Source: a virus. Taken from it: 56,321 bases of DNA. A model generated the notes under the pieces. The model made no database searches. It was not told where the DNA came from and saw nothing but the letters and a program-made list of their open reading frames with translations. The stretch is from the IMG/VR virus record IMGVR_UViG_3300035682_000045, positions 1 to 56,321 of that record; one strand, given 5' to 3'. Positions within the stretch are counted from its first letter, which is position 1. Each line of letters starts with the position of its first letter. Shown one piece after another: positions 5,701-39,049 of this stretch. The position numbers and the translations under genes are program-made.

Positions 5701-8046
5701 ATTGATTCAACTGTTGCTACACTAACTGGTACACAGACCCTTACAAACAAGACTCTAACATCTCCAGCAATTACTACACCAACTGGAATTACAAAGTCAG
5801 ATGTTGGTTTGGCAAATGTTGATAATACAACAGATGCAGGTAAGCCAGTTTCAACTGCTACACAAACAGCACTTGATCTTAAGGCACCACTAGCAAACCC
5901 AACATTCACAGGAACAGTAACTCTACCAACTGGAACAGTTACTTCAGGAATGATCCTTGATGGAGCAATCGTAAACGCAGACATTAATGCGTCTGCAGCA
6001 ATTGCACAATCAAAGATTTCAGGACTTACTACAGACCTATCTTCTAAGCTAGCACTTGCTGGCGGTACAATGACAGGAGCACTTACACTATCAGGTTCAC
6101 CAACAGAATCTCTTCATGCAGCAACAAAGGCATATGTGGATTCTGCTGTAGAAGGACTTCATGTTCATCCATCTGTAAAGGCAGCTACAACAGCAAACAT
6201 AACACTTGCAACTGCTGTTGAAAATGGAGATACTATTGACGGAGTTACTCTTGCTACTGGAGATCGTATTTTGGTTAAGAACCAGACTACAACTTCACAA
6301 AATGGTATTTACGTTGTAGCAGCAACAGGTGCTCCAACTCGTGCTACAGATTTTGATACAGCAGCAGAAGTTGATTCTGGTGACTTCGTATTCGTAGATC
6401 AAGGTACCACTAATGCTAATACTGGATGGGTACAAATTAATACTCCTGCAACTATTGGAACAGATGCTATAGAGTTCGTTCAGTTCTCAGGCGCTGGAAC
6501 CTACCTAGCAGGTAGCGCACTTACATTAACTGGTAATACATTCTCTATTGCAGATGGAGCAATTACATCAGCCAAACTCGCAGATGGAACAATTGTAGAC
6601 GCAGATGTTAACGCATCAGCAGCAATTGCACAGTCTAAGATTTCAGGTTTAACATCTGATCTTGCTGCTAAGGCACCAATCAATGCCCCAACGTTTACTG
6701 GAACTGTTTCTGGTATTACTAAGTCAATGGTTGGTCTTGGTAACGTAGATAATACTACAGACGCAGGAAAGCCAGTCTCTACTGCTACACAAACTGCACT
6801 TGACCTAAAGGCTCCTTTGGCAAACCCTACTTTCACAGGAACTGTCTCTGGTGTAACAAAATCACATGTTGGACTTGGAAGCGTTGATAATACAGCAGAT
6901 GCTGATAAGCCAGTATCTTCTGCGACAACAACAGCCCTTGCACTAAAGGCAAACCTTGCTTCACCAACACTGACTGGAACTCCTTTATCTACAACAGCTA
7001 CTGCTGATACAAATACAACACAAATTGCTACTACAGCATATGTAGTTGGACAAGCATCATCAACAACTCCAGTAATGAATGGAACAGCTGCAACAGGAAC
7101 ATCGTTAAAATATGCCCGTGCAGACCACGTTCACGCAACTGATACTTCTAGAGCTCCACTTGCAAGCCCTACATTTACTGGCACTGTAACTCTTCCAACT
7201 GGAACAGTAACATCTGCAATGATTCTTGATGGAACAATTGTTAATGGAGATATCAGTGCAACTGCAGAAATTGCTCAGTCTAAGATTTCAGGACTTTCAA
7301 CAAGTCTTGGTCTTAAGGCAGATCTTGCTTCTCCAGCACTTACTGGTACCCCAACAGCACCTACAGCTACTGCTGGTACAAATACTACTCAGGTAGCAAC
7401 AACAGCATTCGTAGGAACAGCAGTTGCAGATCTTGTAGCCTCAGCTCCAGCAGCACTTAATACTCTGAACGAGTTGGCAACTGCTCTTGGAAATGATGCA
7501 AACTTCTCAACAACAGTAACAACATCTCTTGCATCTAAGGCTCCTCTAGCATCACCTACATTTACTGGTACAGCTACAATACCTACACTAACACTTACCA
7601 ACCCATTGTCTGCTGCTAACGGCGGTACTGGACTGTCAAGTCTTGGAACAGGCGTAGCAACATTCCTTGGAACACCATCATCTGCAAATCTTGCAGCAAT
7701 GATTACAGATGAAATTGGAACTGGAAACATTGTTCTATCAGAAATTGCAACAAGTTCACAGACAGCATCTTACACACTAGTTGCAGGCGATAGAGGAAAG
7801 CTAGTTGAAATGAATGTTGGTTCTGCTAATACTTTGACAGTACCTCTTGATTCAACAGTTAACTTCCCAGTTGGAACACAAATTGATATCCTACAGGTTG
7901 GATCAGGACAAACAACCGTAGCTGGAGCAGTTGGCGTAACAGTTAATGCTACTCCAGGCTTAAAGATTAGAGCACAATGGGGTGGCGCAACTCTTATTAA
8001 GCGTGCAGCCAACACTTGGGTATTAATTGGAGATCTAACAGCATAG
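2761..8046 (+). CDS. Giant repeat-containing tail fibre protein
   Basis: 1761 residues. Residues 1-60 (RMQQRRGTAAQWI ... GEIGFEIDNNRFKIGDG) match the N-terminal attachment domain seen in many phage fibres. The first third carries seven histidine-pair units of the form HxSDTTxxHGI. The rest carries six copies of a VGLGNVDNT(S/T)D repeat with KPVSTATQTAL and PTFTGTV linkers, a repeat common in tail fibres. A domain encoded at 6133-6549 is shared with the truncated fibre upstream. The last ~120 residues (from SEIATSSQTASYTLVAGD) form a non-repeated tip with a GDRG motif, plausibly receptor-binding. Composition is rich in Ala and Thr, and long Ala stretches suggest a coiled-coil shaft. It has its own promoter at 2722 and a terminator follows at 8089. 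Confidence 0.88.
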   Translation: MATRMQQRRGTAAQWISTNSGQGPVLNAGEIGFEIDNNRFKIGDGVNHWVDLPYFANNEAITDLIDGAPALLDTLNELAAAVGDDPAFFTTVATNLSNHQSDTTNIHGIADTSLLATTANVATAKSEAISAASSDATTKANAAQSTAISAAAADATSKANAAQAAAEATASADATSKANAARTAAEATAASALSTAISTEVSNRNTAISTAVDSLVDGAPALLNTLNELAAAINDDANYTTTITTALGTKAPLASPDLTGVPTAPTAAANTNTTQIATTAFAKAEADAAQVAAEVDATSKANAAQAAAISAAAADATSKATSAQAAAEATAAAALSAHDSDTTNVHGIANTSLLETQSGAQTKVDTHSSDTTGVHGIADTSLLETQTGAQTKADSAVSSHSSDTTNIHGIADTQALETQTGAQDKVDSHNSATTNVHGIEDTADLATQQYVLDQIANSTGDYPDLAGEGLDWNGVTLAFDIDSTVATKTYADTAVSTHSSDTTSVHGITDTAELATKAFAAELLTNATKTNVTITGDKNGLTITAENGVADSTTSDLAEGTNLYFTNERAQDAIGNSLGTGLTYTDSTGAISVTTNTYDSYGSASAVAGDLSTHTSDTTDVHGIANTANLATKQYAASLLLNATKTNITITGDVDGLTINAENGVADSDTDFLTEGTNNLYFTTERAQDAVGNSVGTGLSYNDATGAVSVDTTAIQARVADVSDTEIGYLNGVTSSIQNQIDTKAALVSPTFTGTVSGITKTMVGLGNVDNTSDANKPVSTAQASAIATAKSEAIADATSQVTSVIDGAPAALNTLNELAAALGDDANFASTITSTLSTKAPIDAPTFTGTVSGITKSMVGLGNVDNTSDSSKPISSATQTALDAKLASATAASTYAPIDSPTFTGTVAGVTKAHVGLGNVDNTSDASKPVSTATQTALDLKANTSDVAELAQDAVNTAIVAGTGLDKVYSDVANTITLDIDSTVATLTGTQTLTNKTLTSPAITTPTGITKSDVGLANVDNTTDAGKPVSTATQTALDLKAPLANPTFTGTVTLPTGTVTSGMILDGAIVNADINASAAIAQSKISGLTTDLSSKLALAGGTMTGALTLSGSPTESLHAATKAYVDSAVEGLHVHPSVKAATTANITLATAVENGDTIDGVTLATGDRILVKNQTTTSQNGIYVVAATGAPTRATDFDTAAEVDSGDFVFVDQGTTNANTGWVQINTPATIGTDAIEFVQFSGAGTYLAGSALTLTGNTFSIADGAITSAKLADGTIVDADVNASAAIAQSKISGLTSDLAAKAPINAPTFTGTVSGITKSMVGLGNVDNTTDAGKPVSTATQTALDLKAPLANPTFTGTVSGVTKSHVGLGSVDNTADADKPVSSATTTALALKANLASPTLTGTPLSTTATADTNTTQIATTAYVVGQASSTTPVMNGTAATGTSLKYARADHVHATDTSRAPLASPTFTGTVTLPTGTVTSAMILDGTIVNGDISATAEIAQSKISGLSTSLGLKADLASPALTGTPTAPTATAGTNTTQVATTAFVGTAVADLVASAPAALNTLNELATALGNDANFSTTVTTSLASKAPLASPTFTGTATIPTLTLTNPLSAANGGTGLSSLGTGVATFLGTPSSANLAAMITDEIGTGNIVLSEIATSSQTASYTLVAGDRGKLVEMNVGSANTLTVPLDSTVNFPVGTQIDILQVGSGQTTVAGAVGVTVNATPGLKIRAQWGGATLIKRAANTWVLIGDLTA
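6133..6549 (+). repeat. Duplicated fibre domain, copy 2
   Basis: Encodes the same ~139-residue domain as bases 771-1184, beginning YVDSAVEGLHVHP and ending near NTFSI. Protein similarity is high while the DNA has drifted at many third positions, so the duplication is not very recent. Confidence 0.85.
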
Positions 8047-8195: not shown

Positions 8196-10229
8196 ATGTC
8201 AGAAAGCGTATTTTCATTTCGTTTGTCAGAAGAGTTTGTAAATAAATATCAATTAATTCCAGCACCTTTTGGATTCTCAGATGCAGGGTCTAACTCTTTG
8301 GGAGAAATAACATTTATTCGTACATATTCTCGTGTCAAGGAAGATGGAACTAAAGAGCGCTGGCATGAAGTTTGTCGTCGTGTAATTGAGGGTATGTATT
8401 CAGTACAAAAGAATCATGCCAAAGATAATCGTCTACCATGGAATGATAACAAAGCACAAAAGTCTGCACAAGAAGCCTTTCAAAGAATGTTTGAATTAAA
8501 GTGGACACCACCAGGCCGTGGTCTTTGGGCATTTGGAACTCCCATGACAATGGAAAAGCGTAACTCCGCTTCCCTTCAAAACTGTGCAATGGTGTCAACA
8601 AGAGACATTGATCGCAATGATCCTGGTGCATTATTTGCTTGGGTGATGGATGCATTAATGCTGGGTATTGGAGTAGGGTTTGATACCCTTGGACAAGACA
8701 AGCAAATGTCTATTTATGCTCCTACTGAGCCAGCATCTATTTATGAAATTCCTGATACCCGTGAAGGATGGGTTGAGTCAGTCCGTCTTTTAATTAATTC
8801 ATTCCTTCGTCAAAATCAACCAGTACAAGAGTTTAACTATGACCTTATCCGTCCTCTAGGTGCCCCTATTAAGGGCTTTGGTGGCGTTGCAAGCGGTCCA
8901 GCACCACTTATTGATCTCCATACACGCATTCGTAATGTAATTGGTTCTAGAGCAGGAGAAGCTTTAGATAGCCGTGCTATTGTAGACATTGTTAACCTAA
9001 TTGGAACATGTGTTGTATCTGGTAATGTTCGTCGCTCTGCAACTCTTGCACTTGGTACTCCAGAAGATAATGGTTTTATTAATCTTAAGAACCCAGAAGT
9101 ATTTCCAGATCGTAACTCCTATGATCCAGAAAAGCCAGGTTGGGCATGGATGTCTAATAATTCTATTTCTGCTGAAGTTGGAACAAAGTATGAAGATTAT
9201 GTTGATTTAATTGCAGACAATGGAGAACCAGGATTTATCTGGCTTGATGTTGCAAGAGATTATGGTCGCCTTGCAGATGCACCAGACTATAAGGATTCCC
9301 GAATCATGGGATTCAATCCTTGTGCGGAGCAGCCATTAGAGTCATACGAACTTTGTACGCTTGTAGAAGTGCACCTTAATCGTCATGAGTCTAAGGAGGA
9401 CTTCCTCAAGACATTGAAGTTTGCATATCTTTATGGAAAGACTGTAACTCTTATGCCAACACATTGGCCAGTAACAAACGGTATTATGCAAAGAAACCGT
9501 CGCATTGGCACATCTTTGACAGGTATTGCTGCATTTGCAGATCAATATGGTTTACCTACAACCCGTGAGTGGATGGACGAAGGCTACAACACAATTCGTA
9601 AATATGATCACCAGTACTCAGAATGGCTATGTGTTCGTGAATCAGTTCGTGTAACAACGGTCAAGCCATCAGGATCAGTTTCCCTTCTTTCTGGTGCAAC
9701 TCCTGGAGTTCACTGGGGACCTGGCGGAGAGTTCTATCTACGTGCCATTCGCTTTGGTAACCAAGACCCAATGCTACATCTTTTCAAAGCTGCAGGGTAT
9801 AAGATTGAAGATGATCTAGTATCAGCAAATACATCAGTGGTTTACTTCCCAGTTGCATCAGGACATAGACGTGCTGAGAAGCAGGTTAGCCTATTTGAGA
9901 AGATTGGTTTGGCAGCAACTGCTCAGAAGTACTGGTCAGATAATGGTGTTTCTGTAACTCTTTCTTTTGATAAAGACACAGAAAAGCAATTTGTTGCCCC
10001 AGCTCTAAATATGTATGAGGGTCAGCTAAAGGCAGTCTCATTTCTTCCAATGGGCAATAAGACATATCCTCAACAGCCATATACAGAAATATCAAGAGAA
10101 GAATACAACGCATACGTAGGAACAATTGGTAAGATTGATTGGTCTGCTATTTATGATGGTGTAGAAAACCTTGAGGCTCAAGGTGAAGCCTACTGCTCAA
10201 CAGATGCTTGCGAACTTAAAACATATTAA
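8196..10229 (+). CDS. nrdJ: Adenosylcobalamin-dependent (class II) ribonucleoside-triphosphate reductase
   Basis: 677 residues. Reduces ribonucleotides to deoxyribonucleotides for phage DNA synthesis, using coenzyme B12 to generate the thiyl radical. All landmarks of the monomeric Lactobacillus leichmannii RTPR type are visible. These are the first active-site cysteine C130 (SLQNCAMVS), N374/C376/E378 in NPCAEQ with radical cysteine C376, and partner cysteine C387 in ELCTLVEV. The C376-C387 spacing of 11 equals that of C408-C419 in the L. leichmannii enzyme. The C-terminal redox pair C667/C672 (CSTDAC) keeps the family spacing of five. VKPSGSVSLL at ~489-498 is another conserved block. At 677 residues it is somewhat shorter than the ~739 of the prototype. 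It sits between the fibres and the portal with its own promoter and a terminator upstream. No thioredoxin or NrdR gene is nearby. Confidence 0.95.
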   Translation: MSESVFSFRLSEEFVNKYQLIPAPFGFSDAGSNSLGEITFIRTYSRVKEDGTKERWHEVCRRVIEGMYSVQKNHAKDNRLPWNDNKAQKSAQEAFQRMFELKWTPPGRGLWAFGTPMTMEKRNSASLQNCAMVSTRDIDRNDPGALFAWVMDALMLGIGVGFDTLGQDKQMSIYAPTEPASIYEIPDTREGWVESVRLLINSFLRQNQPVQEFNYDLIRPLGAPIKGFGGVASGPAPLIDLHTRIRNVIGSRAGEALDSRAIVDIVNLIGTCVVSGNVRRSATLALGTPEDNGFINLKNPEVFPDRNSYDPEKPGWAWMSNNSISAEVGTKYEDYVDLIADNGEPGFIWLDVARDYGRLADAPDYKDSRIMGFNPCAEQPLESYELCTLVEVHLNRHESKEDFLKTLKFAYLYGKTVTLMPTHWPVTNGIMQRNRRIGTSLTGIAAFADQYGLPTTREWMDEGYNTIRKYDHQYSEWLCVRESVRVTTVKPSGSVSLLSGATPGVHWGPGGEFYLRAIRFGNQDPMLHLFKAAGYKIEDDLVSANTSVVYFPVASGHRRAEKQVSLFEKIGLAATAQKYWSDNGVSVTLSFDKDTEKQFVAPALNMYEGQLKAVSFLPMGNKTYPQQPYTEISREEYNAYVGTIGKIDWSAIYDGVENLEAQGEAYCSTDACELKTY

Positions 10230-17950: not shown

Positions 17951-18592
17951 ATGGCAGATTACAAGCGTGGGTCTAGCAATAAGATTATTGTTGGAGCAGC
18001 AGCACTTTTTGTCGCAGATTCAGTATTAACGCCAACAGGTGCAGCAGCTCCTGCAGCTTTTGTTAATGCAGATTCATACAGAACGACACTAACAAACGAC
18101 GCTAACTACACTAATGTTGGTTACACAATGAATGGTATTGAGATTCAATTCCAACCAGATTTTGGTGAAGTACAGGTTGACCAGGTTCTTGACGTTGCTA
18201 AGCTTTACAAGCAAGGAATGCAAGTTAATCTTGCAACAGCATTTGCTGAGGCTACACTAGAAAATCTTCTTTTGGCTTTAGCATATAAGGACACAAAGCT
18301 TACTACAGCACTTAATGGAGACAAGACATTAGACTTGTCAGCAGGAGATATCGGTGAATGCCCAGTTGAGCGAGGACTCGTTGCAATTGGACCAGGAACT
18401 GGTGACTGTGAAGACTCTGATGTTGTAGAGCGTGTTTACATAGCATACCGTGCACTTTCAATTGAAAATGTAACAGTATCTGCAAAGCGTGACGAAGCTT
18501 CAATGTTTGAGGTTTCATTCCGTTTGCTACCAGATGATACTTCTTCCTCATACGGTAAGATCGTTGACCGTACATGGGGCGACGCTTCATAA
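17951..18592 (+). CDS. Major tail (tube) protein
   Basis: 213 residues. Builds the hexameric rings of the tail tube. The N-terminus (KRGSSNKIIVGAAALFVAD) and the middle (YTMNGIEIQFQPDFGEVQVDQVLDVAKLYKQGM, then ATAFAEATLENLLLALAY) match the common major tail protein pattern. The C-terminal strands (IENVTVSAKRDEASMFEVSFRLLPD) complete the beta-sandwich. It has its own promoter and a strong terminator downstream and is followed by tail assembly chaperones and the tape measure, the canonical order. Confidence 0.88.
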   Translation: MADYKRGSSNKIIVGAAALFVADSVLTPTGAAAPAAFVNADSYRTTLTNDANYTNVGYTMNGIEIQFQPDFGEVQVDQVLDVAKLYKQGMQVNLATAFAEATLENLLLALAYKDTKLTTALNGDKTLDLSAGDIGECPVERGLVAIGPGTGDCEDSDVVERVYIAYRALSIENVTVSAKRDEASMFEVSFRLLPDDTSSSYGKIVDRTWGDAS

Positions 18593-18614
18593 TAACAACT
18601 TAATAATACGACTT

Positions 18615-18650
18615 AGCCCATCTCATAACGAGGTGGGCTTTGTTGTTTTT
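18615..18650 (+). terminator. Intrinsic terminator after major tail gene
   Basis: AGCCCATCTC (18615-18624) pairs with GAGGTGGGCT (18630-18639; one G-T wobble) around ATAAC, followed by TTGTTGTTTTT. Confidence 0.87.
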
Positions 18651-18651
18651 G

Positions 18652-18660
18652 TGGTAAACT
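18652..18660 (+). promoter_or_regulatory. Extended -10 promoter, near-leaderless chaperone start
   Basis: TGGTAAACT immediately behind the terminator. ATG 18670 lies 9 bases after the hexamer, so the leader is a few bases at most and no ribosome site is possible. Confidence 0.6.
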
Positions 18661-18669
18661 TAATAGACT

Positions 18670-19368
18670 ATGGCAACAACTATATATAAGACTAAAAATA
18701 TATTTTTATTTGATGGCACAGAGATAGAGACAATGCCTCTTAAGATTAAGTATCTTAGAGAGTTTATGGATGCATTTGATAAAATAAGATATACCAAAGA
18801 TGATGATGAAGCTATGCTAGTTTTGCTTGAATGCACACGAATTGCAATGAAGCAGTATTGTCCAATAATATCAAAAACAGTAGAAGATGTTGAAAATAAC
18901 ATAGATTTACCAACAATGCATGAAATACTAGAAATTGCTGGAAACATTAAGGTAGCCCCAGAGTCTGATGAAGATGTAAAAACTCAGGCACAAAAGGGAG
19001 ATGCTGGACCAACATGGGAAGAGTTTGATTTAGCAAAAATTGAATCAGAGGTATTCTTGCTGGGTATATGGAAAGACTATAATGAGCTAGAAGAGTCTTT
19101 GTCATTAGCAGAAATAATGGCAATACTATCAAGTAAAAGAGAACTAGATTATCAGGAAAAGAAGTTTTTTGCAGCAATACAGGGAGTAGATATAGAAGAT
19201 TCAAATGACTCTGATCGTGGTCAACAAGAATGGGAAAACCTTAAAGCAAGAGTATTTAGTGGTGGAGCAACAAGTGATAGCAAAGATATTTTAGCCCTTC
19301 AAGGACAAAATGCTAGAAGCGCAGGGTTTGGAATTGGCATGGGTCTTGATTATGAAGATCTTAGATAA
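18670..19368 (+). CDS. Tail assembly chaperone, long form
   Basis: 232 residues. The N-terminal ~105 residues are homologous to the next gene: MATT, (F/L)DGTEI, PLKI, LR-FM, (L)LEC, IAM-QY and ENNIDLPT occur in the same order. The C-terminal ~125 residues (WEEFDLAKIESEVFLLGIWKDYNELEESLSLAEIMAI ... YQEKKFFAAIQGVD) resemble the T-domain of siphovirus GT-type chaperones, which load tail tube subunits on the tape measure. In most siphoviruses G and GT come from one locus through a -1 frameshift; here the long form is one continuous frame. I see no slippery heptamer at the domain junction (near 18960). Confidence 0.8.
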   Translation: MATTIYKTKNIFLFDGTEIETMPLKIKYLREFMDAFDKIRYTKDDDEAMLVLLECTRIAMKQYCPIISKTVEDVENNIDLPTMHEILEIAGNIKVAPESDEDVKTQAQKGDAGPTWEEFDLAKIESEVFLLGIWKDYNELEESLSLAEIMAILSSKRELDYQEKKFFAAIQGVDIEDSNDSDRGQQEWENLKARVFSGGATSDSKDILALQGQNARSAGFGIGMGLDYEDLR

Positions 19369-19382
19369 AATAAACGTTATTA

Positions 19383-19391
19383 TGCTATAAT
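19383..19391 (+). promoter_or_regulatory. Extended -10 promoter for short chaperone / tape measure
   Basis: TGCTATAAT, 27 bases before ATG 19419; GGGAGGG (19406-19412) serves as ribosome site. Confidence 0.7.
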
Positions 19392-19418
19392 TGATACAAA
19401 CCTATGGGAGGGATCAAT

Positions 19419-19745
19419 ATGGCAACAACAGTGCACGAAGCACATGTGATTAAGCTACTTGATGGTACAGAAATTACTCTAAGACCGCTTAAGATTTCAC
19501 TTTTACGAAAGTTTATGAAAAAGTTTGAGGGTATCGCTGCAGTAGTAGATAACAATGAGAAATCAATTGACTTGCTAATGGAGTGCGTAGTAATTGCTAT
19601 GGAGCAATATGCTGCTGGACTATCAGTAGATCTTGCAAATTTAGAAGAAAACATTGACTTGCCTACTGTATATCAGATTGTTGAAGTAGCATCAGGAATT
19701 CCACTTTCTGAAGCAGCAGCAATTTTCAGTAGCGATGAAGAATAA
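19419..19745 (+). CDS. Tail assembly chaperone, short form (paralogue)
   Basis: 108 residues from ATG 19419, selected because GGGAGGG lies 6 bases upstream; an in-frame ATG at 19404 overlaps that site. It aligns over its full length with residues 1-105 of the long chaperone at 18670 and ends where that protein's C-terminal domain begins, in a similar acidic tail (SSDEE versus ESDEDV). It therefore corresponds to the G protein, supplied by a separate gene. The tape measure gene starts 24 bases later. It has its own promoter, which allows more short form than long form, the ratio that frameshifting normally sets. Confidence 0.8.
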   Translation: MATTVHEAHVIKLLDGTEITLRPLKISLLRKFMKKFEGIAAVVDNNEKSIDLLMECVVIAMEQYAAGLSVDLANLEENIDLPTVYQIVEVASGIPLSEAAAIFSSDEE

Positions 19746-19769: not shown

Positions 19770-22700
19770 ATGGCTGATGCTCAGTCCAATATTAAAGTAA
19801 GTATTGATACTACTGAAGCACTTGCTAGTATCAAAAACTTACAGAGACAGATATCAGCCTTTCATACCTCAATGGCAAAGAGTGGTGCTGCAGCAAATGC
19901 AGTTACTGCTCAGATGCAACAAAATTTAATTAATTCTGTTAATGCTACGGGCAAATTCTCTGCCCAGATGAAGACTATAAAAACCACAACAGAATCATTT
20001 ACAGACTCACTGCAAAAAAACAAATTCTCTATGGGAGAATATTTTAGATATGCGGGTGGTGCATCCAAGAGCTTTGGTAGGTTGTTCAAGACTGAGTTTG
20101 AGACAATTAATAAGGTTGCTAGAGAAAATGTAAAAGATCTTCAAACTCAGTATATTAAGATGGGTCGTGATGCCAACGGAGCAATGAAGGCAATTGCAGT
20201 TCGTCCTCTTGCACTTGACATGAACGACCTTGCAACTAAAACAATGATTGCCTCTGAAAAGCAGGCACTTTTAAATCAGCTACTTAAGCAAGGCTCAACA
20301 AATCTTCTTAACTTTGGTAAAAATACACAGTGGGCTGGTCGTCAGCTTATGGTTGGTTTTACAATTCCGTTAATTGCTTTAGGCTCTGCAGCATCAAAAA
20401 CATTTATGGACATGGAAACACAGGCCATAAGATTTAAAAAAGTTTATGGAGATTTGTTTACTCCAGCATCAGAAACACAAGCAGCACTAGAAGGAATTAC
20501 AGAACTTGGAAAGCAGTTCACAAAATATGGAATTGCTGTATCAACAACTGTAGGTTTAGCATCAGAAGCAGCAGCAGCAGGTTTTAAGGGTCTTGATCTT
20601 CAAAGACAAACATCTGCAGCAACAAAGCTTTCCATTCTTGGACAAGTAGATAGTCAAAAAGCTCTTGAAACAACAATTGCTTTGCAAAATGCTTTCTCTA
20701 TGTCTTCTGAAAATCTTGCAGAATCAATTGACTTTCTTAACGCAGTAGAAAACCAAACAGTTCTTTCTCTAGATGACGTTTCAACAGCTATTCCAAAAGC
20801 AGCTCCAATCGTTCAGCAGCTTGGCGGAGATGTTAAAGATTTAGCATTCTTCATGACTGCAATGAAGGAAGGTGGAATCAACGCATCAGAAGGTGCTAAC
20901 GCACTAAAGTCTGGTCTTGCATCATTGATTAATCCAACTGGAAAAGCAGCAGCAATGCTTGAAGGTTTTGGAATTAATGCAAAGAAGATTGTGGTAGACA
21001 ATAAGGGCGACCTTAAGAAAACTGTTATTGAGTTTGCAACAGCTCTCAATCAGCTTGACCCACTTAACCGTGCACAAGCTATTGAGCAAATGTTTGGTAA
21101 GTTCCAGTTCTCCCGTCTGTCTACTCTTTTTGCAAACGTAACAAAAGAAGGAACACAGGCCTCTCGTGTTCTTGACCTAGCTGGCGCATCTGTACAAGAT
21201 CTTGCTGCGCTATCTGAAAAAGAATTAGGCATGACCTCAGAGTCTGCAATGAATAAGTTTAAAGCTTCTGTTGAAAACCTTAAGCTATCCCTTGTTCCTG
21301 TTGGAGAAGAATTCTTAAAGGCAGTCACACCTATTGCTGAGTTTGTTACAAAGATTTTAGACAGATTCAATAATCTTGGAGATGGAACAAAAAAGATTAT
21401 TGTTACAATGACAGCAATAATTGCAGGCATTGGGCCAGTTCTACTAATGACATTTGGTTTGCTTGCTAATGGTCTTGCAAATATAATTAAGGGCTTTACA
21501 GCAATGAAGACGCTGTTCAATAAAACTGGACAGTCTTCAGCAACACTTGGTACAGAAGTTAAATATATGACTCTTGAACAAAGAAATGCTGCTGCTGTTG
21601 CTGCATCTCTTGATCAGGTTCATAGAAATCTTGCTCAAACATTTACATCTGAAGCTACAGCAGTTAATGCTCTTACAACAGCATATCAAAGATCTATTGC
21701 TGCTCAGGGACAGTTTATGCCAGTGGCAAGACCAATGGGGCGTGGACCACTTAAGAAGTTTGCAGATGGCAAGCCTTCAATAATTGGCGGTACAGGAAAC
21801 CAAGACTCAGAGTTAGCATTGCTACAACCAGGAGAAACAGTAATACCAACAAAGATGAGTAAGAAGTATGGCGCACTTATCAATGGCATGATTGCTGATA
21901 ATATTCCTGGATATAAAAAGGGACGTGGCATTAGCTTTGGCGGAAAGACCTATGACATACCAGTGTCTTCAAATGAGCAAGCTTTAAATGAATCGCTGGG
22001 AAGGTTTAGCAAAGACCTTGATGGTGTTACACGAGTACTAACAACTCTTGAACAAGAAGCAAAACTTGCTGGAGATAGCTTTAAGCATCTAAGCTCCGAT
22101 GCGCTTAAGGAAACATTAGATGCACAAGGTGTTCCAAGAAATAATCCAAGAGGAACATCTGCAACCCTGTATGATAATGAAAAATATGTTTTTGCTCATG
22201 CAAAGCCACAAAATGCAGAGATAACAGACCCTAAGCAAATACAAGCACTTGCTGGACAAACATCTTCAAAGTCTTTATCTAGAGATTTACGTGCTGCAGC
22301 AGCATCAGGTGGAAAGGTTCAGCAGTTAAGCAGCTTCGGCTTTATGATGCCAGAGTCTGCAAACAAGAGAACATCTGGTGGAAACTTTGAAATGGGAAGA
22401 GACCAAATGGCTTCTCTTTTCACAGGACCAAAAGCTGAAAGAACACTTGCTCCAATCTATCAATCTTGGGCAGAAAGTAATGGATTAAGCCTAAAGACTG
22501 TTCTTGCAGATCCAAAGCTAACAAAAGAAATGCATTCAAGTGTTGCTAGATTTGGTGGTTTAGTTGGAGATGAAATAAAACAACTTCCTAAAAACTTTGG
22601 GGAAAAAGATTTTTATAATGCAGTAGATAGAGCAGTACAAAGAATTGACAAGGCAGACGCTAAACTTACACGAGCAGTTGCTGATATGCAACAAACATCA

Positions 22701-25109
22701 ATGCTTGCTGTAGATAACAGCAAGTCTGGGAAAGTTCTTGAAAGAAGAACTGTTGGTAAAAAAGATAAAAACTTAAGAAGAGCTCTTGGAACACCAGCAA
22801 ACTTTACAAACTATAAAGATGTAGGAAACAGAAATATTCTTGTTATGGGAGATAGGGTTGCACAGGCAAGTGGAGCTAAAGATGCAGCTGCGTACAATCG
22901 TGGTGCAGCATCAGCATCAACACCTAATAATGATAAGTATGTTCAGAACCGTTCAAAACAAAGAAGTGCACACAACCTAGCACCAAAAGATGGCAGAGAT
23001 GATGCAGTTGCATATCAAACTGCTGTTGAAAAATCAATTGCAAGAAACCAAAGAAAACTTGCTAAGCGTGGACAATCCGCTCCAACTATAATTCCTTCAA
23101 GAATGTCAAGAGTAAAGGGTGCAGCAAGCAAGGTTGGTGGCAAGCTGGCAGGACGTGGAGCAGCAGTTGGTATGGCAGGAAACTCTGCAATGATAGCAGC
23201 CTCATTCCTTCCTGGCAAGATGGGTGAACTTGCTCAAAAGATTATGCCAGCAGTATTTGGATTCCAAGCACTATCAATGATACTAAAGATGCTTCCAGGA
23301 CCATTTAAGCTGGTTACACTTGGCATTGCTGCAACAGTGGGAATAATTAAGTTGCTCAATGCAGCTAAAGAACGTGAGCGTGTAGCTATTGAAGGCTTGG
23401 GCGATGCTGCAACGGTATCTGAAAAGAAACTTAAAACTCTTGGTGACTTTTTTGGAGTTGTACCAACTAAGATTGATTATCTATCTAGAGATAATACGGT
23501 AGCAACTACAGGAGCAACACCAGAAGAACAATCTGCAATTGATTCGCTACAGCAAAATAAGCAATTCCAAAAAGACTTTAAGAATGACATTGCATCTTTA
23601 AAGAAGGGCAATGACGCACAGGCTAAACTAGTATTTGACTCTATTGCTATTCAGTTGCGTGGCTCAGGTTTTGCTAAAGAGCAGATTGATTTAATAGTTA
23701 AGGCACTACAGGAAGAATCTGGTAAGACTAATATTAAGTTTGACTTTGCCAATATTGATCTTTCAACAGATCAAGGTATATTGAATTTTGATAAGAACTT
23801 TGGAGTTATCTTAAAAGATCTAGACTCTTTGCTTGTTCAATCATACGACAAGATGAAATCATTTGATTACCAAACTCAAAAGTGGGTTGGCGGTGTAGTT
23901 ACTAATATATCTGAAGAAGCAAAAATTAATCTTAAACTAGCTAGCGATGCAGCTGTTGGATTTATAAATGGCTTAACAGCACAGCTAAATAATGGAACCA
24001 TTTCTGCAGAGCAATTCTCTCAAGGATTTGCAAGAATAAATTCATCTATTGCTACAATGCCAAAGCCAGACCAGATTATTTTGTTAGATGAAATATTTAA
24101 GACATTGCCAGAAGCTTTACAAAAAGCAACATCTGGAATGACAGATACTGGCGTGAGAATGAAAATTCTTGAGGCACAATCATTGGGTCTAGCAGGAGCT
24201 GCACTTATTTTAGCAGACTCATTTAAAATACTAAATTCACCAGATGTTTTTGGACCAGAAAATGCAATAAGAAAATATAATGCATTAACTGCTTATAACA
24301 AGGCTTTAGATAAAATTGCTGCTGAATCAAAAAGAGTTGCTGCTGACTTAAAGAAAAGAATGGGCGGATCCGATGGAACTAAACCATATACAGATCCAGA
24401 TACAGGCACATCAGGCGGTAAGAATCTAACAGATGAAGAAAGATATCTTAAGATATTAGACAAGCAAATTGATGCTTTGAAGGCAAAGCAAGATGCTCAA
24501 AAAAAGATTAATGATGAAATTCAAAGAGAAGTAGATTTAATTAATGAACTAGATGACCTTGCTTCTAAGGCAACAACAGCAAAGCTAACTGGTAACTATA
24601 TTGAAGCAGCAATGTTTGGAAGACAGGCTATCCAGGCACAACAAGAGTTTGATAGACAGACACAACTAAATCTTCAAGAAGAGCCAATTGATAAGCTGAT
24701 GGCACGTAAAAAAGAGATTGAGGATGGCTCAAAGCTAACTAAGTCAGAGAAGTCACAACTGCCTAAAAAGGTTGTTAAAAAGGCCAATGGAGGCCTTATA
24801 AAGGGTCCTGGCACAGGTCGCTCAGATTCTATTAAAGCAACACTTGGTTATGCAGGTGGAGGATCAATTCGTGTTTCAAATGGAGAGTTTGTAGTAAAGG
24901 CTTCTTCTGTAGGCAACTACGGTATTGATAAGATGAATGCTGTAAATAATGGAACTGCAGACATAATCACAAACCCTGGCGGTACATCAAATACTAATGT
25001 AACTATGTATGTCACTGGATCAAACTCTGATGAGATAGCAAAGAAGGTTATGGTAGAATTAGATAGATTACAAAAGAAAAATAATAAAACGAATATGGTG
25101 GCAAAATAA
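19770..25109 (+). CDS. Tail tape measure protein
   Basis: 1779 residues. Sets tail length and is carried into the cell envelope on DNA ejection. The N-terminal coiled-coil part (SIKNLQRQISAFHTSM) is followed by the conserved TMP region: LMVGFTIPLIALGSAASKTFMDMETQ near 190-215, then SEAAAAGFKGLDLQRQ, AMKEGGINASEGANALKSGL and LNRAQAIEQMFGKFQFSRLSTLF. Hydrophobic segments lie near 545-580 and 1130-1200. A Gly-rich motif (IIGGTGNQDSELALLQPGETVIP, near residue 670) recurs near the C-terminus (GLIKGPGTGRSDSIKA ... NGEFVVKA), bracketing ~1000 residues that include a stretch rich in Lys/Ala. AAAGAGGTG precedes the ATG. The stop overlaps the next start. Confidence 0.93.
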   Translation: MADAQSNIKVSIDTTEALASIKNLQRQISAFHTSMAKSGAAANAVTAQMQQNLINSVNATGKFSAQMKTIKTTTESFTDSLQKNKFSMGEYFRYAGGASKSFGRLFKTEFETINKVARENVKDLQTQYIKMGRDANGAMKAIAVRPLALDMNDLATKTMIASEKQALLNQLLKQGSTNLLNFGKNTQWAGRQLMVGFTIPLIALGSAASKTFMDMETQAIRFKKVYGDLFTPASETQAALEGITELGKQFTKYGIAVSTTVGLASEAAAAGFKGLDLQRQTSAATKLSILGQVDSQKALETTIALQNAFSMSSENLAESIDFLNAVENQTVLSLDDVSTAIPKAAPIVQQLGGDVKDLAFFMTAMKEGGINASEGANALKSGLASLINPTGKAAAMLEGFGINAKKIVVDNKGDLKKTVIEFATALNQLDPLNRAQAIEQMFGKFQFSRLSTLFANVTKEGTQASRVLDLAGASVQDLAALSEKELGMTSESAMNKFKASVENLKLSLVPVGEEFLKAVTPIAEFVTKILDRFNNLGDGTKKIIVTMTAIIAGIGPVLLMTFGLLANGLANIIKGFTAMKTLFNKTGQSSATLGTEVKYMTLEQRNAAAVAASLDQVHRNLAQTFTSEATAVNALTTAYQRSIAAQGQFMPVARPMGRGPLKKFADGKPSIIGGTGNQDSELALLQPGETVIPTKMSKKYGALINGMIADNIPGYKKGRGISFGGKTYDIPVSSNEQALNESLGRFSKDLDGVTRVLTTLEQEAKLAGDSFKHLSSDALKETLDAQGVPRNNPRGTSATLYDNEKYVFAHAKPQNAEITDPKQIQALAGQTSSKSLSRDLRAAAASGGKVQQLSSFGFMMPESANKRTSGGNFEMGRDQMASLFTGPKAERTLAPIYQSWAESNGLSLKTVLADPKLTKEMHSSVARFGGLVGDEIKQLPKNFGEKDFYNAVDRAVQRIDKADAKLTRAVADMQQTSMLAVDNSKSGKVLERRTVGKKDKNLRRALGTPANFTNYKDVGNRNILVMGDRVAQASGAKDAAAYNRGAASASTPNNDKYVQNRSKQRSAHNLAPKDGRDDAVAYQTAVEKSIARNQRKLAKRGQSAPTIIPSRMSRVKGAASKVGGKLAGRGAAVGMAGNSAMIAASFLPGKMGELAQKIMPAVFGFQALSMILKMLPGPFKLVTLGIAATVGIIKLLNAAKERERVAIEGLGDAATVSEKKLKTLGDFFGVVPTKIDYLSRDNTVATTGATPEEQSAIDSLQQNKQFQKDFKNDIASLKKGNDAQAKLVFDSIAIQLRGSGFAKEQIDLIVKALQEESGKTNIKFDFANIDLSTDQGILNFDKNFGVILKDLDSLLVQSYDKMKSFDYQTQKWVGGVVTNISEEAKINLKLASDAAVGFINGLTAQLNNGTISAEQFSQGFARINSSIATMPKPDQIILLDEIFKTLPEALQKATSGMTDTGVRMKILEAQSLGLAGAALILADSFKILNSPDVFGPENAIRKYNALTAYNKALDKIAAESKRVAADLKKRMGGSDGTKPYTDPDTGTSGGKNLTDEERYLKILDKQIDALKAKQDAQKKINDEIQREVDLINELDDLASKATTAKLTGNYIEAAMFGRQAIQAQQEFDRQTQLNLQEEPIDKLMARKKEIEDGSKLTKSEKSQLPKKVVKKANGGLIKGPGTGRSDSIKATLGYAGGGSIRVSNGEFVVKASSVGNYGIDKMNAVNNGTADIITNPGGTSNTNVTMYVTGSNSDEIAKKVMVELDRLQKKNNKTNMVAK

Positions 25110-33625: not shown

Positions 33626-36600
33626 ATGCCTGGTAAATTAAAAGTCGGTGGGTCTTGGAGAGATATCACCTATATTAAACTAAAAGTTGGTTCTATATGG
33701 ACTAATGTTGGAGAGGCGTATTTAAAGGTAGGCGGTGACTGGAGTAAGTTCTTTGGTGCAAGTGGACCACAGATAAGTCAAAAACCTGTAATCACGGCAA
33801 GCAGCACTACATTCCCAGCAATAGTAACTGGACGAAACTATCATTGGGATTCAGGAAATGTGTTTACTTATGTATTTCAATATTCATTGACTGCTCCAAC
33901 ATCAACTACAGCGTGGATAGACATAGGAGAGTACCAGTCAATTACAAACCCAGCAGTTGGATCTTCAGTAACAAAGACATATGATTTAGCAGATTTAGAA
34001 GTTGATGTAGAAGATGATATTTGGGTAAGATTTACGGTGCTAGCCGTTAATACTGTAAACTCAACACAGACAATTGAGAGTAGTGATCCTGTGCAAGTAT
34101 CAAACAATCTTCCAGTTGGAACACCAGTATCTGCGGTAATAGTAAGAGATTCTGAAGATGGATACGTATACAGCGTATCAAATCCTGGTATATGGACAAA
34201 GACTCCTATTCTTTCATATAGATACCAATGGCAACAGAATACCTCTGGAACAACATGGGCTGATATAACAGGGGCAACATCTATATCAAGAAACATGCTT
34301 TCATTCGTTGGTAAAAATGTTAGAGTAAGGGTTTGGGCAACAAACTCATCTGGAGAATCATTTAGGCCAATTGTTTCAAATTCAATGATGGTAACTTATG
34401 CACCACCAGAGATTAGTTCATTTACAGTAACTCCAAGAGCAGGTGGCGCTACTATTAGTTATTCTGCAAGCACAGACGATCCTGACTATAGTATTTCTGT
34501 TTTATTAGAAAGACTGAGTGGTGGAACATATTCAGACTATTTCTTTATCCCAATACCTCTTACATCCCTTACTGCAACAGACATTGAATTTACTACTGAT
34601 GTTTTGGCATCTGGTACATATCGTTTTACTCTTGTTGTAATAACTAATGATTTGATAGAAACTACCTCACAGGTTTCTGGAGTTGTCGTACCAGCACTTT
34701 CTGCTTCTTCTTTAACGGTTACAGACACAACACCAACAACAGACTATACTCCATCAGGACTTACAGTAACAAACCCATCAAACAATCTTGGTTTAGTTGA
34801 ATGGACAAATGGAGCAAATGCAGATCTTGCCACATTGGTTTTAAGCGGTGCAGCAACTGGAACAACAATTTTTGATCCAATAGAATCAAGTAAAACCTTT
34901 AGCGTAACAGTAAGTGGAACAGTAACAGCTTCTTTAACCAATACTATAAAAGGTGAAGCAACTATAGCATGGAGTCAAAGTGGTGCTAGAAGTTTTAAAT
35001 TAAAATATGAGGTTGGTGGAAATCCTGTAACATACAATGTTGCAGATACTACATCTACATCTCCAAGTCTAAATATAATGTCTAATGGTCTTCAGGTTAA
35101 AGCAGTTTCTGTTGAGGTATTCCCTTTGACAAATTATCAAGGTACATCAACACTGTTTACTCCATCAGTAGCACCAACTGCAACACCAACAAACAAGGTT
35201 AGCACTCCAGCCATTACTGCAAGTGGAACAGTAGAATTCCTTAATCCAAGTGCATCCTCTTTGGCAATTGCAAACACAACACCAAACGCAACACCTACTG
35301 TAACTAGTGTTAGAAACAGTGCAACAACAAATGTTGGAACTGTAGATTGGGAAAATGGAACTGGAGCAACTAGTGGCTGGCTAGAAAAGATGACAGCAGC
35401 TGGAATTGTAACTGGACAACCAATTGCCGATCCTGGAAGTCTGTCTACTACTGGATCATTTAATATTTTAATTACTGGAAATGCAACGGCAGTAGTAAAA
35501 AATAGATCAAATGCACAAGTCACCATATCTTGGTATCAATCTTCTGTAAAAAGCTATAGGCTAAGATATACCGTTGCTGGAACTTCTTATACTAGAAATG
35601 CAAATACTGTAGATGAAAATGGAGCTGCAATAACTGGAACAACTTCTTTTATTATTCCAATTGATGTAAACAATAAAGCAGTTGTTGTTACAGAGCTAGT
35701 TGTATATTCTGGATTAAACCAAAATGGAATTCCATCTGCTGCTGTACTACCAGGTTCAGCATCTGTTACAGCAACAAACATAACAAATGAAGCAACAGGA
35801 TCTGGTGCAGTGACTTATGCAGCACCAGCAACAGCTCCAGGAACTCCAACAAACCTACAAAGAAACCTTGATGGAGCATCAAAAACATTTACTTGGACCG
35901 CACCATCTGACGGTGGTTCGCCAATAACAAATTATGAGTTCAATATAAATAACACTGGATGGTTTGCTAGAAGTCCAGCATCTTCAGCTACATCTTATTC
36001 ACTTACAGCAGTAACTGGAAATATTGGAAACACTTTTCAAGTTCGTGCAGTAAATGCAGTAGGTTCTTCTGCTACCCCAGCTAGTTCTGGAACTTATTAT
36101 GTTCCATCTGTTGGAGCTCTTACTACATCATCTATTACTAAGACTTCAGCAATAATTACTTGGACTTCAGGTACAGCTGCACAAGCTGCATGGTCACTAT
36201 CACTTCCAGGAGCATCAGGTTCACCATTTACTGCAAATAATAGTAATACGTCCTTTGGTGTTACTGGATTAGTAGCAGGAACATCTTATACACCAACATT
36301 AACTCTTACATCTTCAAGTGGTGATACAAACTCTAGAACTGGAACTGAATTTACTACAGTAGGTCTTTCAGGAATTAAAACGTTGTCAAACCTTACAGTA
36401 TCTTCTGGAACACTAAGTCCATCATTTCTTTCTGGTACTAATTCATATACTGTTTCTGGACTATCTAATGCAACATCATCTATTACTGTTACTCCTACAG
36501 TTACAGACTCTACATCTACCGTCACAGTAAATGGAGTTTCAGTAGCTTCTGGGTCAGCATCAGGTGCAATTTCACTCACTGCTGGATCAACAACTAATAT

Positions 36601-39049
36601 TAACATTATAGTTACTGCAGAAAATGGAACCACTAATACTTATACAATTGCAGCTAGCAGAAATCTTCCAGCACTTAGCATTTCTCTTTCCAATGTTACT
36701 AAAACGCTTACTGGATTTACATTTACTTTAACAAGTACGTATGATTCCAACTATACATGGACAGCATCTGTTCAATCACCTGCCACCATCTCCCCTTCTT
36801 CAGGATCTTCTAGTGGGCAAACCTACACGGTATCTGGAATGACATCTGATGGTGGACCAAAAATGGCCACAATAACTGCCTCACGTCCTGGATATGATAC
36901 AGGATCTGATACAAGGACTGGATCTGTTCTAGCACCATCTGTATCTAATTTTACTATTTCAAATACAACGGCAAACCCAGTTCCTAGTTCAATTACCGTT
37001 GGAAATAGTGCAACAGTAAATGTTGGTACAGTAAATTGGGCAAATGGAACTGGTACAGATAGATCTTGGGTATCATCTGTGACACCTGGATCATCCTTTA
37101 CTGGCTCAGAAGGTACACTGAGCCCTACATCACAAAATTTCACCATTACATCTACTCAGTCAGCAGCAGTTGCAACAGTATTTAATAAAGCATTTGGTAC
37201 AGCAACAATTTCTTGGAATCAGTCTGATGCACAAAGCTATACATTAATATATACCATTAGTGGAGTACCTGGACAACAAACAGTTAATGCAAATAGTACA
37301 GCATCCAGTGTATCCCGTTCTGTTAATGTAGATGGTTTAGCTGTTACCCTTGTATCAATTAAGGTTTTTACTGGACCAAATCAAACTGGAAACTTTAATA
37401 GTATAACATCAAGTTCATCAGTAACACCAGTTGATAAGATTAACTCAGCAACTGGTTCTGGATCTATAACACGTGTATCACCTCCAGGTACTCCAACAAT
37501 AACAATATCAAGTAAAACAACATCTGGATTTAACGTGAGTTGGTCAGCATCTGGTGCAACAACATATAATGTTAATGTATATAACGTAAGCACTGGAGTT
37601 TCAGTTTCTGGATATCCTTTAACAAATACAACCAATACATCTGCAACCATATCAGGATTGACTGCAGACACTAACTATAAGGTTGAGGTTTTTGGAAATA
37701 ATGCAGCTGGGTCTGGATATAATTTTGCAGATGTGACAACACTTTCAGTAACTCCAACTATTAGTGGAATATCTATTAGTAATAATGCTATTTCTCCAGG
37801 TTCTTCTACTAGCATATCTGTTTCTAATACCCCACCATCAAATACTGGATCTGTATCATGGGCAAACGGATCTAATACATCAGCAGCAGGCTTGTTTACA
37901 GTATCTGGAGCAGGTTCTGGTGGTTCATCTCCAACAAACCCATCATCACTGTTAACCGCTGGAACGTTTACGGTAACATCAACTGGAACTGCATCGGTTG
38001 GTATACGTGCAATTAATACAAATAAGGGTGCAAATGTTTCATGGACACAATCTGCAGCACAAAGCTATTCAATTAATATAACTGCATCAGGGCTTTCCAC
38101 CTTCAATGTCACTGGAAACTCAAGTGCAAGCAGTCCAAGCATTCCTGTTATATCTAATGATTCATTATCTAGAACAGTTACAGTAAATAGTGTTACAGTT
38201 TATTCTGGACTAAATCAGACTGGTACACCAGCATCACTTTCTTCTGGATTAAGCATAACAACTGCAAATGGTATTACAGATACCCCAGGTTCTGGCTCTG
38301 TAACTTATAGTCTTCCATCTCCTGGAACACCAAACTTCCTTACTGCATCCACAGGAAGAACAGATGGAGTTGAGCTTTCATTTAGTGGTTCTTCTAATGC
38401 AACTAGTTATGATATTTATTGGAATACTACTTCAGCAGTAAAGCCAGCAACAACTGTTACTCCAGATTTTCCAGGAGTAACTTCACCATACCTAGATTCT
38501 GGAATACCACCTGGAGGAAGTAGACAATATTGGGTTAGAGGAAAAAATTCAACTGGATTTTCTGCATGGTTCCCAACAGGAACAGGTTCTAGTGGAAGAG
38601 TTGGAACAAGAGCTTCAGCTCCTCCTTTCTTCCCTCCTTTCTTCCCTCCTTTCTTCCCATTCTTCCCACCGTTCTTCCCATTCTTCCCACCGTTCTTCCC
38701 ACCGTTCTTCCCACCGTTCTTCCCACCGTTCTTCCCACCGTTCTTTGGTGCTTCAACACCACCATTAACACCAACAGGTCTAACAGCACAACTATCTGGA
38801 TCAAGTACTGTGCTTAACTGGAATGCAGCATCTGGTGCAACAAGCTATGAGCTATGGTATCAACCAAGTTCTGCTCAATATTCTGGAACAACTTTTGACT
38901 ATCCAGCTCCTGGACAACCAGCTATAACAAATACTACATTCTCTGCACCAGTTGGTTACTCACAGTACTGGACAGTTAGAGCAAGAAATTCAGCAGGTGT
39001 AAGTTCATGGTCTACAATGGTACAGTCATCATCAGGTGGTCCAGTATAG
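33626..39049 (+). CDS. 1807-residue adhesin-like tail fibre with beta-domain repeats
   Basis: The N-terminus carries three short KVGxxW-type units (residues ~4-50), likely the anchor to the tail. It then has Ig-like domains and a ~180-residue domain present four times, each with a Trp in V-x-W-x-NG (W393, W575, W1138, W1412) and a later WxQSxxxS motif. An FN3-like domain (~745-835, TPTNLQRNLDGASKTFTWTAP) and a cadherin-like beta domain (~915-1010) lie between copies 2 and 3. Residues 1666-1707 are an uninterrupted run of PPFF/PFF units before a final FN3-like tip domain. Composition is Ser/Thr/Gly-rich. There is no clear ribosome site; a weak -10-like TGGTATATA lies at 33597. The inferred role is receptor or surface binding. 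Confidence 0.75.
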   Translation: MPGKLKVGGSWRDITYIKLKVGSIWTNVGEAYLKVGGDWSKFFGASGPQISQKPVITASSTTFPAIVTGRNYHWDSGNVFTYVFQYSLTAPTSTTAWIDIGEYQSITNPAVGSSVTKTYDLADLEVDVEDDIWVRFTVLAVNTVNSTQTIESSDPVQVSNNLPVGTPVSAVIVRDSEDGYVYSVSNPGIWTKTPILSYRYQWQQNTSGTTWADITGATSISRNMLSFVGKNVRVRVWATNSSGESFRPIVSNSMMVTYAPPEISSFTVTPRAGGATISYSASTDDPDYSISVLLERLSGGTYSDYFFIPIPLTSLTATDIEFTTDVLASGTYRFTLVVITNDLIETTSQVSGVVVPALSASSLTVTDTTPTTDYTPSGLTVTNPSNNLGLVEWTNGANADLATLVLSGAATGTTIFDPIESSKTFSVTVSGTVTASLTNTIKGEATIAWSQSGARSFKLKYEVGGNPVTYNVADTTSTSPSLNIMSNGLQVKAVSVEVFPLTNYQGTSTLFTPSVAPTATPTNKVSTPAITASGTVEFLNPSASSLAIANTTPNATPTVTSVRNSATTNVGTVDWENGTGATSGWLEKMTAAGIVTGQPIADPGSLSTTGSFNILITGNATAVVKNRSNAQVTISWYQSSVKSYRLRYTVAGTSYTRNANTVDENGAAITGTTSFIIPIDVNNKAVVVTELVVYSGLNQNGIPSAAVLPGSASVTATNITNEATGSGAVTYAAPATAPGTPTNLQRNLDGASKTFTWTAPSDGGSPITNYEFNINNTGWFARSPASSATSYSLTAVTGNIGNTFQVRAVNAVGSSATPASSGTYYVPSVGALTTSSITKTSAIITWTSGTAAQAAWSLSLPGASGSPFTANNSNTSFGVTGLVAGTSYTPTLTLTSSSGDTNSRTGTEFTTVGLSGIKTLSNLTVSSGTLSPSFLSGTNSYTVSGLSNATSSITVTPTVTDSTSTVTVNGVSVASGSASGAISLTAGSTTNINIIVTAENGTTNTYTIAASRNLPALSISLSNVTKTLTGFTFTLTSTYDSNYTWTASVQSPATISPSSGSSSGQTYTVSGMTSDGGPKMATITASRPGYDTGSDTRTGSVLAPSVSNFTISNTTANPVPSSITVGNSATVNVGTVNWANGTGTDRSWVSSVTPGSSFTGSEGTLSPTSQNFTITSTQSAAVATVFNKAFGTATISWNQSDAQSYTLIYTISGVPGQQTVNANSTASSVSRSVNVDGLAVTLVSIKVFTGPNQTGNFNSITSSSSVTPVDKINSATGSGSITRVSPPGTPTITISSKTTSGFNVSWSASGATTYNVNVYNVSTGVSVSGYPLTNTTNTSATISGLTADTNYKVEVFGNNAAGSGYNFADVTTLSVTPTISGISISNNAISPGSSTSISVSNTPPSNTGSVSWANGSNTSAAGLFTVSGAGSGGSSPTNPSSLLTAGTFTVTSTGTASVGIRAINTNKGANVSWTQSAAQSYSINITASGLSTFNVTGNSSASSPSIPVISNDSLSRTVTVNSVTVYSGLNQTGTPASLSSGLSITTANGITDTPGSGSVTYSLPSPGTPNFLTASTGRTDGVELSFSGSSNATSYDIYWNTTSAVKPATTVTPDFPGVTSPYLDSGIPPGGSRQYWVRGKNSTGFSAWFPTGTGSSGRVGTRASAPPFFPPFFPPFFPFFPPFFPFFPPFFPPFFPPFFPPFFPPFFGASTPPLTPTGLTAQLSGSSTVLNWNAASGATSYELWYQPSSAQYSGTTFDYPAPGQPAITNTTFSAPVGYSQYWTVRARNSAGVSSWSTMVQSSSGGPV
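38621..38746 (+). repeat. (P)PFF-encoding tandem repeat
   Basis: 126 bases encode eleven units, nine PPFF and two PFF. At DNA level the first three units use CCT CCT TTC TTC and the later ones CCA CCG TTC TTC (12-bp period), so it grew in at least two rounds. It is in frame within the adhesin at 33626. Confidence 0.95.

Follow-up and report, generated by a model that had tools for sequence, protein, structure and literature searches.

Gene duplication as a probable replacement for the programmed frameshift of siphovirus tail assembly chaperones

The frameshift in tail assembly chaperone genes is among the most conserved recoding events of phages, and the usual explanation for it is that two proteins are needed in a fixed ratio. 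In lambda, the protein G coats the tape measure protein, the T part of the longer protein GT recruits the tail tube protein, and the G:GT ratio of about 30:1 is crucial (PMC5009743). Arrangements that do without the frameshift are also on record. The relevant passage of a 2024 paper (PMC10885494, citing Vladimirov, Gautam and Davidson 2022) describes some T4-like phages with a short gene and a longer fused gene and no frameshift, and the part of another report that deals with chaperones describes some Microbacterium phages, in some subclusters, with two chaperone ORFs and no evident frameshift (PMC7302621); since such cases have been described in these places, the principle as such is already known. 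Our subject is a pair of genes in a stretch of viral DNA of 56,321 nucleotides, which is called the window below. We consider it quite probable that the pair belongs to a siphovirus G/GT chaperone system in which a single gene duplication took the place of the programmed -1 frameshift.

The chaperone genes and their homologues

An earlier reading of the window, made from its letters only, had proposed two ORFs at this locus, and both were confirmed at the coordinates that it had given. The pair is flanked by the genes of the major tail protein and the tape measure protein, which is the position expected of a G/GT system:

17951 to 18592, + strand: major tail (tube) protein gene, the upstream neighbour (PHROG 2175, E 7e-33; weak Phage_TTP_17)
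18670 to 19368, + strand: long tail assembly chaperone gene, G and T fused in frame, 232 aa (PHROG 10504 and PHROG 10474)
18670 to 18960, + strand: G1 domain of the long protein (44% identity with the short protein; a single clade in the G tree)
18988 to 19365, + strand: T domain of the long protein (56% identity with the -1-frame T of the environmental locus L159; about 40% with the T of Streptomyces phages)
19419 to 19745, + strand: short tail assembly chaperone gene, G2, 108 aa (PHROG 10504; Foldseek; placement in the G tree)
19770 to 25109, + strand: tape measure protein gene, the downstream neighbour (PHROG 10030, E 1.8e-96)

The name of the upstream gene agrees with the annotation "major tail protein" at the homologous position in Streptomyces phages. 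The short ORF has an alternative start at 19404, giving 113 aa, an ATG that overlaps the gene's Shine-Dalgarno site; the conserved start is the ATG at 19419 (108 aa), 7 nt behind that site. Elsewhere in the window, a tail-region ORF of 1807 aa (33626-39049) carries PPFF repeats, arranged in a run, close to its C terminus, and a gene for a B12-dependent ribonucleotide reductase (8196-10229) is found within the structural gene region.

The sequence-only reading held that the two proteins are paralogous in their N-terminal domain and that only the long one has an extra domain, and both statements stand. In BLASTP, the first 97 residues align with 44% identity (E 2e-26); PHROG 10504 matches the long and the short protein alike (5e-20 and 1.5e-19, the latter for the short one), and PHROG 10474 matches only the long protein, in its remainder beyond G (3.6e-14). 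Both of these PHROGs are without a name, searches of the two proteins against Pfam and NCBIfam returned no applicable family and only chance-level matches, and among the solved structures of the PDB there was no significant match. Unrelated folds had been named as fatal to the claim of paralogy; in AlphaFold2 models of medium confidence (pLDDT 66 and 68), the G parts agree, both having an identical order of elements, a beta hairpin and then four helices, with additional helices in the long protein. For the short model, the best Foldseek match in the viral library was a tail assembly chaperone (E 7.6e-5, TM 0.66). Both genes are under purifying selection, the median dN/dS being 0.26 for G1, 0.16 for T and 0.18 for the short G.

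A short and a long protein with a common N-terminal domain are thus present, as in other G/GT systems, and so is homology to annotated tail assembly chaperones. A tblastn search of 50,697 phage records returned 127 Streptomyces and 3 Rhodococcus records, besides insignificant Microbacterium matches, with an E of 3e-31 for the window proteins against Coruscant. In the best Streptomyces records, the long protein aligns as two pieces in different frames; in Coruscant, Tomas and Mildred21 (Stanwilliamsviridae), these pieces correspond to a G and a T ORF with the major tail and tape measure genes on either side. Several of these ORFs are annotated "tail assembly chaperone", and a joined (frameshift) annotation is present in Yaboi and in the Rhodococcus phage Francesca. 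The short protein matches one place per record, and at the sensitivity of this search no second G copy was found in the Streptomyces and Rhodococcus phages. As the long protein matches G and T in two frames of frameshifting phages, it is a frameshift-free fusion of G and T, and the short protein is a second G. A pattern scan of 84,980 bacterial and archaeal genomes confirmed no copies there; the relatives point to an actinobacterial host.

Architecture of the relatives and direction of change

Relatives were collected with scans of IMG/VR and HMM scans for G and T. The 210 distinct loci, whose counts are not independent since they were collected by their likeness to the window and since the tree shows one event, fall into 180 with a long GT and a separate short G and 30 with a single G and a T in the -1 frame. 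The former comprise 326 loci (179 distinct) with a fused GT and then G, plus L029, which has an insertion between the two; the latter comprise 42 loci (28 distinct) and two Rhodococcus phages. The search for other states among relatives, which the sequence-only reading had proposed, has therefore turned up the frameshifting form and no mixed state (0 of 210), and a G-T-G-T intermediate was equally absent from the related loci. The arrangement of lambda, one G with T in the -1 frame, differs from what the 180 distinct loci have, as T is there in frame with G1; a separate short gene beside a longer fused one, as described for T4-like phages, is found, the likeness being one of function alone. 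The long-first order is fixed across the whole duplicated clade. It had been called the reverse of the usual order, and this is right for the order of the genes; T, being part of the first gene, nevertheless keeps the order of G and then T, and the novelty is the second G behind.

The space between the two genes can hold insertions. In L029, an endonuclease VII family gene (5759-6301) is inserted between the long and short genes and the pair is intact; in L003, the same gap contains another ORF (5746-6222) without a Pfam match, after which the contig ends. Inserted genes being tolerated between the two, their joint translation is not needed. Four loci that appeared to have a fused GT without a short gene were rejected as such: L003 for its inserted ORF and contig end, L270 and L316 because they are cut by a contig end, and L195 because its short gene is broken by a frame shift, perhaps a sequencing error.

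The proposal that duplication stands in the place of a -1 frameshift gains from the finding that frameshifting relatives do exist, as sister and outgroup lineages. Before the stop of G, an in-frame G GGA AAC is present in all 23 distinct environmental single-G loci, and Francesca and Trina (Rhodococcus) have an in-frame G GGA AAA. In the Streptomyces phage loci L161, L162, L163, L325 and L324, GGGAAAM is absent at the end of G; four Boydwoodruffvirinae loci have GAC CCG GAA in common there, Jada (Loccivirinae) has C CCA AAT in its stead, and CCC(G/A)(G/A)A may be the slip site of Streptomyces phages.

A functional slippery site in either gene would have spoken against the duplication, and the search for one found no conserved site in the long or the short gene; in particular, no conserved heptamer lies at the G/T junction among the fused loci. 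The window itself does have an in-frame heptamer of the form X XXY YYZ at this junction, AAAGGGA at codon 108 of the long gene, and the -1 frame stops about 11 codons later. The long gene could then make both products, GT in the zero frame and, after a -1 slip as in dnaX, a short G, and the second gene would be redundant. We give this next to no credence: AAAGGGA is common to only 6 of 179 relatives, the near relatives having AAG GGT or AAA GGC at the position, there is no stem-loop signal nearby (z 0.01), and the separate short gene is present wherever a contig end does not remove its place. Slippage at the end of the short gene was considered as well and rejected, as heptamers late in the gene are confined to 6 of 172 short genes and are not followed by a T. 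In L275 and L276, both of them fused loci, the short G contains an in-frame GGGAAAC close to its end that likewise lacks a T after it, and this looks like a relic.

For the direction of change, we turned to a tree built on 802 columns, in which the major tail protein, the N-terminus of the tape measure protein and T were concatenated. The fused loci form one clade in it (95/83), the environmental frameshift loci are the sister of that clade (92/90) and the Streptomyces phages are the outgroup; by parsimony, this topology makes frameshifting the ancestral state and gives the duplicated form one origin, and the most likely history of these sequences would be one in which frameshifting was lost once. 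The opposite course, from an original duplicated form to an environmental frameshift clade in which a single G with a -1 T had been restored, draws on the single-protein trees of T and the major tail protein, which place the frameshift clade, weakly, inside the fused clade, and on the grouping of that clade's G with G2. We judge it very improbable, however: the single-protein trees are less strong than the concatenated tree and its sister relationship, the frameshift form is also that of the outgroups, phages of Streptomyces and Rhodococcus, the Rhodococcus heptamer being nearly the same, and a reversal would need GGGAAAC to be invented again and G2 to be joined to T once more.

The trees of G bear on the date of the duplication. 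In a careful G tree, G1, G2, the single environmental G and the Streptomyces G each form one group; in a larger, quick tree, G2 clusters with the frameshift clade's single G, and G1 falls outside. The latter grouping could mean that the duplication predates the split of the clades, or that G1 evolved faster (dN/dS 0.26 vs 0.18). Holding G1 and G2 as one clade was not rejected (AU p 0.21), so that the duplication may have come before or after the split.

Expression signals of the two genes

The following signals precede the two genes:

18615 to 18639, + strand: intrinsic terminator between the major tail protein gene and the long gene (10-bp stem plus T run)
18652 to 18660, + strand: extended -10 element TGGTAAACT, 9 nt before the ATG of the long gene, predicted promoter
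19383 to 19391, + strand: extended -10 element TGCTATAAT of the short gene, predicted promoter
19407 to 19411, + strand: GGAGG, Shine-Dalgarno site of the short gene, 7 nt from its ATG, read from the sequence

That the genes have separate promoters and different initiation signals had been suggested from the window, and the predicted signals do contrast, consistently so in 164 intact relatives, to which the signal counts refer. The terminator region (18610-18652) folds with -20.8 kcal/mol (z -5.3), and a similar hairpin stands at this position in the relatives inspected. An extended -10 element is found before the long gene in 162 of the 164 relatives, 6-9 nt from the ATG in 151 of them, against 10-11% in shuffled sequence with a loose motif; its -10 boxes are mostly imperfect (TAGAAT, TAAAAT, TAAACT), with a perfect TATAAT in 20. 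A Shine-Dalgarno sequence before the long gene was found in none of the 164. Counting 6-7 nt from the -10 box, transcription would begin on the ATG or 1-3 nt before it, so that a near-leaderless start is predicted for the long gene; the 9-nt spacing of the window implies a leader of 2-3 nt and thus a transcript that is not fully leaderless. Leaderless translation is common and robust in mycobacteria, where leaderless mRNAs can match leadered ones (PMC4633059), and as they can be translated equally well, the long gene need not be translationally weaker. Cluster O mycobacteriophages are predicted to have leaderless promoters (PMC4351075), and a section heading in a study of M. smegmatis states that "Leaderless mRNAs may be transcribed less efficiently" (PMC7148126).

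For the short gene, the promoter scan gives TAGATA-18-TATAAT with TG. A perfect TGNTATAAT is present before this gene in 164 of 164 relatives, mostly 23-29 nt upstream of the ATG and kept despite very variable intergenic sequence, with 0.2-0.5% in shuffled sequence; the Shine-Dalgarno core is likewise present in all 164, as the full AGGAGG in 88. In the window as a whole there are nine perfect TGNTATAAT elements (2722, 12307, 14844, 17880, 19383, 29877, 39071, 47542 and 55169), all on the + strand, against 4.1 expected on both strands, and several directly precede gene starts, which suggests that the late region may have many internal promoters of the extended -10 type.

It is conceivable that the duplication is as we describe it and that the ratio of the products comes from translation of one long transcript or from terminator read-through, with the promoter-like elements doing little. 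Both promoters are predictions, after all, and no terminator was found between the long and short genes, which puts the short gene on the long transcript too. We nevertheless hold this to be unlikely, given a perfect element in every relative, at a place where the surrounding sequence varies greatly and shuffling yields 0.5%, and given the same element at many gene starts on the window's + strand.

The tape measure gene of the duplicated clade has an extended -10 element in only 1 of 156 relatives and a Shine-Dalgarno sequence in most. In the environmental frameshift clade (L159, L244-L343), the loci inspected have a TATAAT-type element in the gap that separates the stop of T from the tape measure gene. 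No such element after T was seen in the Streptomyces phages, and in the fused clade the promoter of the short gene takes up the spot behind T and in some cases overlaps the stop of T. This suggests that the extra G may have been placed under a former tape measure promoter.

The function of the short gene has been assigned by homology alone, more than half of the positions differ between G1 and G2, and each forms its own clade; the short protein might thus be a G paralogue with another job, for instance in regulation or as the chaperone of some other part of the tail, the long GT doing the classical work by itself. We find this distinctly improbable: it is G2 and not G1 that is nearest to the single G of frameshifting relatives, it retains their promoter and Shine-Dalgarno sequence (a perfect TGNTATAAT in 24 of 28 single-G relatives, with a Shine-Dalgarno also present), it adjoins the tape measure gene, and it is strictly paired with the fusion.

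In the duplicated clade, one copy of G is fused in frame to T and the slippery site is lost; another copy lies between T and the tape measure gene, where it may have settled under the promoter that the sister clade has at that place. By analogy with lambda, coating of the tape measure protein would fall to the short G2 as the abundant form, and the long G1-T, as the minor one, would in addition recruit the tail tube protein. Their ratio would be set by expression, the conserved signals pointing to separate promoters and different modes of initiation for the two genes. Preceded by a terminator, the long gene would have its own, usually weaker, near-leaderless promoter; the short gene would combine an extended -10 promoter of perfect sequence with a leader and a strong Shine-Dalgarno sequence, on a transcript that would also carry the tape measure gene. 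We lean towards a single event that combined duplication, in-frame fusion and division of labour and that put two promoters, in place of slippage, in control of a critical stoichiometry, the minor form being near-leaderless and the major form led by a Shine-Dalgarno sequence.

Comparison with known systems

A lineage that has abandoned the frameshift, beside a sister with an unchanged heptamer, allows the states before and after the change to be compared in nature. With such a pair one can test if it is the ratio itself that is conserved or a different property of frameshifting, and if the strength of promoters and of initiation is able to take over from frameshifting. For annotators, it is a warning that such gene pairs should be neither joined nor discarded.

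With lambda gpG and gpGT, the locus has in common an N-terminal G domain in both proteins, a T extension on the longer one and a position before the tape measure gene (PMC5009743); it differs in that lambda uses slippage in one gene, whereas the phage of the window has two genes and no conserved slippery site. The Stanwilliamsviridae (Coruscant, Tomas, Mildred21, Yaboi and Jada) have homologous G and T between the major tail protein and tape measure genes, as well as a terminator and an extended -10 promoter before G, but only one G, whose T is in the -1 frame (annotated in Yaboi as one joined gene), and no second G. The literature search found no paper that pairs "Stanwilliamsviridae" with "tail assembly chaperone". 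Francesca and Trina of Rhodococcus have a homologous T and the same gene order; they differ in their single G with GGGAAAA and a -1 T, the frameshift being annotated in Francesca.

The Microbacterium phages are likened to the window by description, and in the part of that report concerned with these ORFs, neither a duplicated G domain nor a GT fusion is reported (PMC7302621). T4-like phages share the layout, one short and one longer fused gene taking the place of the frameshift in them too, going by the passage that describes them; they are myoviruses, and the likeness is again one of description. What can be seen in the case of the window, by contrast, is a sister clade that frameshifts, a relic of the slippery site, and a contrast between the promoter and initiation signals of the two genes. 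As far as the literature that we searched shows, what is new here is a siphovirus case with just these three: a sister clade that still frameshifts, a relic of the slippery site, and contrasting initiation signals.
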